Positions 24,803 through 56,426 of a stretch of DNA of 64,000 bases are shown here, in pieces. The position numbers and the translations under genes were made by a program. The notes under the pieces were generated by a model. The model was not told the origin of the DNA and made no database searches. It saw only the letters and a list, made by a program, of their open reading frames with translations. Source of the DNA: Pseudomonadota bacterium. Lineage in GTDB: Bacteria; Chloroflexota; UBA5177. How positions within the stretch are numbered: the first letter of the stretch is position 1; each line of letters starts with the position of its first letter. The stretch covers positions 1-64,000 of the forward strand of contig JAJPIP010000099.1 of assembly GCA_021324655.1 (NCBI GenBank), given 5' to 3'.

Positions 24803-24935
24803 TACGGCTCGTGGATTATCGGCATCGCCGGGTCGTAGTGGCCGGCCCGAGTGCCGGCCAGCCTGACGCCGGCGTAGACCACACCGGGCTGGTCGCCACG
24901 CGGGGCAACCACGACGGCATAATTCGTGAGCCCTG
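24803..24935 (-). mobile_element. MITE-like repeat, copy 1
   Basis: This 133-bp segment is the reverse complement of the element at 56183-56315 with about 11 differences by eye, the central ~75 bp being identical. It contains the same internal hairpins (TGGCCGGC / GCCGGCCA and an imperfect GGTCGCC stem). The terminal inverted repeats are decayed. Direct repeats GGCTTTGCTA occur at 24795-24804 and 24938-24947, shifted by two bases relative to the aligned ends, and probably mark a target duplication. It lies between the proline dehydrogenase and ribA genes and carries no transposase. Confidence 0.75.
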
Positions 24936-56135: not shown

Positions 56136-56182
56136 TGGCAGAGCTCCGCTCTGCCCTGCGATGCGGGACGCCGGCAATTCAC

Positions 56183-56315
56183 CAGGGCTCGTGCATTATC
56201 CCGTGGTGGTCGCCCCGCGTGGCGACCAGCCCGGTTTGGTCTACGCCGGCGTCAGGCTGGCCGGCACTCGGGCCGGCCACTACGACCCGGCGATGCCGAT
56301 AATGCACGGGCCCTG
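56183..56315 (+). mobile_element. MITE-like repeat, copy 2
   Basis: A 133-bp element with 18-bp terminal inverted repeats (CAGGGCTCGTGCATTATC on the left; the right end reversed has CC instead of TC, one mismatch). It is flanked by a perfect 9-bp direct repeat GCAATTCAC (56174-56182, 56316-56324), a target-site duplication. Internally there are two hairpins: GGTCGCC / GGCGACC around CCGCGT, and TGGCCGGC / GCCGGCCA. There is no transposase, so it would move in trans. A second, inverted copy is at 24803-24935. Confidence 0.85.
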
Positions 56316-56426
56316 GCAATTCACTGCGGCGGCTTGATGAAATCAAGCTACAACAGGCACATTGCAAGGCAGAACACAAAGACAGTGGCGCGGAACGATC
56401 TCGCGTTCGTGGAGCTCACGGGCCGC

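Follow-up and report, generated by a model that had tools for sequence, protein, structure and literature searches.

ISAs1-type transposons and miniature elements of one clade lie at a fixed distance upstream of sigma70-type promoters

The 133-bp repeat of the 64,000-nucleotide stretch of DNA analysed here (the window) can be placed, by its termini and its 9-10-bp target duplication, as a non-autonomous MITE of ISAs1 type. About half of its copies in the genome, and many ISAs1 elements of related genomes, lie at a fixed distance upstream of sigma70-type promoters, and promoter-adjacent insertion is a trait of one supported ISAs1 clade, not of the whole family. We consider it very likely that the observations are explained as a whole by an ISAs1-type MITE moved in trans, within a clade that targets the upstream edge of such promoters.

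A dispersed MITE family

The element occupies 56183-56315 on the forward strand and holds no transposase gene. Its left terminal inverted repeat (CAGGGCTCGTGCATTATC, 18 nt, 56183-56200, forward strand) and its right one (CAGGGCCCGTGCATTATC, 18 nt, 56298-56315, reverse strand) differ by one mismatch. A perfect 9-bp direct repeat, GCAATTCAC, which can also be read as the 10-bp GGCAATTCAC, flanks the element as the target-site duplication, with its left copy at 56174-56182 and its right copy at 56316-56324 (both forward strand). Two internal hairpins are present on the forward strand, the first at 56207-56228 (TGGTCGCC-CCGCGT-GGCGACCA) and the second at 56258-56279 (TGGCCGGC-ACTCGG-GCCGGCCA). The inverted repeats, the two hairpins and the 9-bp repeat had been described in the original prediction and were confirmed here. 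The second copy that it had noted 31 kb away was located at 24803-24935 on the reverse strand; it is inverted and 92% identical. The neighbours of the first copy are a mobA-like gene (end 56135) and a convergent hexapeptide-repeat gene, and those of the second are divergent genes for proline dehydrogenase and GTP cyclohydrolase II.

A search of the whole genome with the 133-bp core, proposed together with the prediction, returned at least 40 long matches of 84-96% identity (best E value 3.8e-74), so that the lack of further copies that would have spoken against it was not what we found. When 3 or fewer mismatches are allowed, the genome contains 83 occurrences of the terminal 18-mer vs 6 of its reversed control. 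The consensus termini of the family are YAGGGCTCGTGCATTATC, with the start YAGGG (YAGGGCTC...). Target duplications of 8-10 bp, mostly 9-10 bp, accompany most copies; some of these contain one mismatch and a few are undetectable. The copies differ from the consensus by a mean of 7.6 substitutions and from each other by 13.4, a divergence close to a star, as is expected after a burst. That the family inserted as a mobile element is settled by its copy number, inverted repeats, target duplications and near-star divergence. It has the properties of a MITE: the element is short, has terminal inverted repeats, lacks a transposase gene and is present as dispersed copies with target duplications. No match to it was found in 150 related genomes, and among these it is private to this lineage.

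Several further observations concern the interior and the variants of the element. Across 37 copies the core is less variable than the termini, and in the same columns the hairpin stems (window positions 56207-56279) are variable at 2.6%, vs 8.7% at unpaired positions. One copy (L069, C57:18870-19012) is longer and more diverged, with 143 bp, 84% identity and no detected duplication. At another locus (L080, C11:28905-28922) an ISAs1-like end, CACGGCTCGTGCATTATG, is not followed by the MITE core, and this is possibly another ISAs1-ended element. A second multi-copy element, unassembled, with ends GATACTGCTGGCGAATG and a duplication of about 5 bp, occupies the ACTCGG loop of hairpin 2 in several copies other than that at 56183-56315, in both orientations, and the contigs stop inside it. 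Its loci are L072 (C38), L074 and L075 (C43), L076 (C73), L077 (C76), L078 (C92), L079 (C94), L086 (C45), L087 (C52) and L092 (C108). At the C52 and C108 insertions the flank matches nothing but the hairpin arm, and for this reason the hairpin itself may be the target of this element.

The original prediction had also allowed the conserved hairpin core an RNA or regulatory role, and the repeat could accordingly be thought a structured RNA or regulatory hairpin in place of a transposon. The strong folding of the 133-bp element (z = -7.9 vs shuffled sequence) and its conserved stems fit such a reading, but target duplications at most copies, ISAs1-type ends and the occurrence of both orientations do not, and we regard it as very improbable. 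The RNA role found no support, and an RNA element was rejected given the absence of any Rfam match and of compensatory base changes.

The resident ISAs1 transposase

The ends of the MITE begin with C(A)GGG and its duplications span 8-10 bp, as in elements of ISAs1 type; the family, unfamiliar at the time of the original prediction, can thus be named from its termini and 9-10-bp duplications. Exactly one ISAs1 transposase match exists in the genome, an intact protein of 390 amino acids on contig C3. It scores 225 bits against NF033564 (cut-off 70) and is composed of the domains PF13808 and PF01609; no Mutator-family match was obtained for it in Pfam or NCBIfam. The protein keeps the acidic residues that are conserved in DDE enzymes. 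A contig scan with this transposase gave a single distant relative. The corresponding element (C3:351-1636, 1286 bp) has ends CACGGCCCGTGAATTATT and a 10-bp duplication ATGCGCTCAG.

The 40 copies, their duplications and this intact transposase with related termini support the earlier view of a non-autonomous MITE whose transposase is elsewhere in the genome. As to a full-length element with the same termini, an intact ISAs1 element is present whose left end, by direct comparison, agrees with that of the MITE at 15 of 18 positions; the assembly (114 contigs, with breaks at repeats) yielded no element or transposase whose termini match exactly. A closer parent of the MITE may have been lost or may be unassembled. 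A genome of the same phylum (G123) holds 133-bp MITEs together with a resident ISAs1 element whose 18-nt ends are identical to theirs; therefore ISAs1/MITE pairs of such a kind exist.

Promoters at a fixed distance from the MITE copies

The flanks of 39 MITE copies of this genome were aligned and offsets were counted outward from the element end. Promoters are throughout matches to the sigma70-type (E. coli-type) consensus, as distinct from mapped start sites. TTGAC is found at offsets 19-23 in 21 flanks, with just 3 more matches at other offsets up to 59, and in 9 of the 21 a -10 box (TANNNT) follows 17 nt further. We scored a two-box promoter where a -35 and a -10 box, each with at most 2 mismatches, were separated by a spacer of 16-18 and the -35 box started 17-22 nt outside one end. 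By this measure a promoter pointing away from the element is present at 19 of the 39 copies, with its -35 box typically starting at 19-21 nt, vs 0.61 +/- 0.72 in shuffled flanks, and promoters of the opposite orientation number 3 in all. The promoter side is the right one in 11 cases and the left one in 9, that is, about equally. The full-length element on C3 has the same arrangement, with TTGACA-N17-GATAAT at offset 20. No strong consensus was seen at the duplicated positions of the set from this genome. A crude test for open reading frames behind the promoters gave no informative contrast, with 4 of 13 promoter sides vs 5 of 13 and 15 of 26 others.

In about half of the copies, both window copies included, a clear two-box promoter is missing at the expected distance; these may represent degraded promoters, non-consensus promoters or off-target insertions. 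Outside the copy at 56183-56315 a weak -35-like TTGATG starts at 19 nt (56334-56339, forward strand) with no convincing -10 box, and a promoter beside this copy is doubtful.

The -35 box lies at a nearly constant distance from the element end (sd 0.9 in the set from this genome), as would be expected if the transposase read the promoter hexamers directly, with no part for RNA polymerase. This alternative concerns the recognition step only and leaves the MITE and the targeting unaffected. The -10 box, which lies some 43 nt off with variable spacers of 16-18, is enriched too, however, which would be a better fit to recognition of a whole functional promoter than of one short motif, and we hold direct reading of the hexamers to be possible though unlikely.

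The same geometry in other genomes and at empty sites

The geometry is not confined to one genome. We picked 58 ISAs1 elements or ISAs1-ended MITEs from other genomes of the same phylum by their inverted repeats and duplication; 34 of them have a promoter at 17-22 (shuffled, 3.84 +/- 1.86), and the -35 offsets peak sharply at 18-20.

Many insertion sequences supply outward promoters, and the element might likewise carry or create the promoter, which would then be a consequence of insertion. Both boxes are located in host DNA outside the duplication, however. Empty orthologous sites were also sought in sister species with the joined flanks and were found for four insertions; each of these sites carries the target just once. 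TTGACA and the -10 box are retained at 3 of the 4 empty sites (91-98% identity), in the case of L195 in two species; the fourth site, about 75% identical, is too diverged for its promoter to be judged. The promoters predate insertion, since the three closely matching empty sites retain them, and their supply by the element, contradicted at these three sites, is scarcely credible.

For the copy at 56183-56315, presence of the same 9-mer at an empty orthologous site would have counted against the original prediction. The syntenic mobA/hexapeptide junction of a genome of the same family (G003) lacks the element as well as the 9-mer, in intergenic DNA that is too diverged for alignment of the target.

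Confinement to one transposase clade

When 38 transposases were placed on a tree, every promoter-associated type from the host phylum grouped in a single clade (support 96/92). A promoter accompanies 22 of 37 copies inside this clade and 3 of 39 copies beyond it (two-sided Fisher p = 1.5e-6, an optimistic value since the copies are partly dependent). The labels were also shuffled 500 times, and each shuffle required more changes on the tree than the observed trait. L132, L134 and L135, three ISAs1 elements of this phylum that lie outside the clade, lack the promoter, and therefore the host phylum alone fails to explain the signal. The signal is also mostly absent from ISAs1 elements on plasmids of Actinomycetota and Pseudomonadota, collected by an identical procedure and scored with an E. 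coli-type consensus that may fit Streptomyces and alphaproteobacterial promoters less well. This sample of other phyla was taken without the M. ulcerans virulence plasmids, which hold many ISAs1 elements. TTG is found at 18-20 beside several alphaproteobacterial copies (L233, L234, L251, L254 and L278), and a weaker promoter habit may exist in the ISAs1 elements of that group.

Random insertion in non-coding DNA, followed by survival of only those copies that lie upstream of a promoter and serve there as a regulatory part, would give a similar picture. The lower variability of the stems (2.6% vs 8.7%) and of the core is in its favour, and the interior may be under some constraint. But the distance is precise to one or two bases, it is equal for full-length insertion sequences of different sequence in other genera, and ISAs1 elements of other clades are without the geometry. 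We judge survival of this kind improbable as the source of the pattern, and targeted insertion is preferred.

Discussion

A mechanism of targeted insertion has to accommodate the fixed geometry, which the statistics establish, the promoters that already existed at empty sites and the restriction to a clade. In the scheme that we propose, a DDE transposase of the ISAs1 clade, supplied in trans, would bind the YAGGGCTCGTGCATTATC ends and insert the element through a staggered cut of 9-10 bp, as the termini and duplications suggest. The integration complex of the clade would pick the upstream edge of sigma70-type promoters, so that the -35 box comes to start 18-21 nt outside one end. With a -35 start at offset 19-20, the element would end close to -55 and the duplication would cover roughly -55 to -46, a stretch immediately upstream of sigma region 4 in which the alpha subunits of RNA polymerase make their contacts. 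The likely guide would be a contact of the integration complex with promoter-bound RNA polymerase, through sigma region 4 or the alpha C-terminal domains, and not a motif at the cut site. Polymerase-guided integration would be the simplest account, as has been proposed for TnGBS (PMC3942029).

Insertion at the upstream edge leaves coding region and core promoter untouched. MITEs of this kind thus modify the upstream regions of numerous promoters together and do not destroy them. On balance we favour the view that the ISAs1 clade evolved homing on promoter-bound RNA polymerase independently of the Mutator-type TnGBS, ISLre2 and ISKra4 elements, and that MITEs using it have settled beside dozens of promoters in a single genome, at one fixed position of the upstream (UP/activator) region. 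With related non-homing clades beside it, the homing clade lends itself to a natural comparison that could show which residues, and which surface of RNA polymerase, take part; the system might also serve to map active promoters or to place DNA beside them.

No report of promoter targeting by ISAs1 was found in a literature search of incomplete coverage, and as far as could be found promoter homing is new for this family. Among bacterial DDE transposons, homing on promoters at a fixed distance has so far been reported, again as far as we found, only for parts of the Mutator superfamily. The elements described here share with the ISAs1 family and its MITEs the CAGGG termini, the duplications of 8-10 bp and a single DDE transposase of PF13808 and PF01609; they differ in their promoter-adjacent insertion, which is confined to one clade and mostly missing from the ISAs1 elements of Streptomyces, Aeromonas, Azospirillum and others. 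Ty3, which inserts upstream of Pol III genes, likewise targets transcription starts via the initiation machinery (cited in PMC3942029), but it does so with the integrase of a eukaryotic retrotransposon and at a different polymerase. A close parallel is with TnGBS/ISLre2 and the ISKra4 group of the Mutator superfamily, for which the insertion site lies 15-17 bases upstream of the -35 region in sigmaA promoters; those with nearly symmetric ends insert in either orientation (PMC3942029). A fixed distance upstream of -35 and the use of either orientation (11 right, 9 left) are found here as well, whereas the distance between element end and -35 box is slightly larger, at about 18-20 bases, and the transposase is of ISAs1 type (PF01609). 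The ISAs1 clade would work like the Mutator promoter targeters and, judged by the sequence of its transposase, is not one of them.
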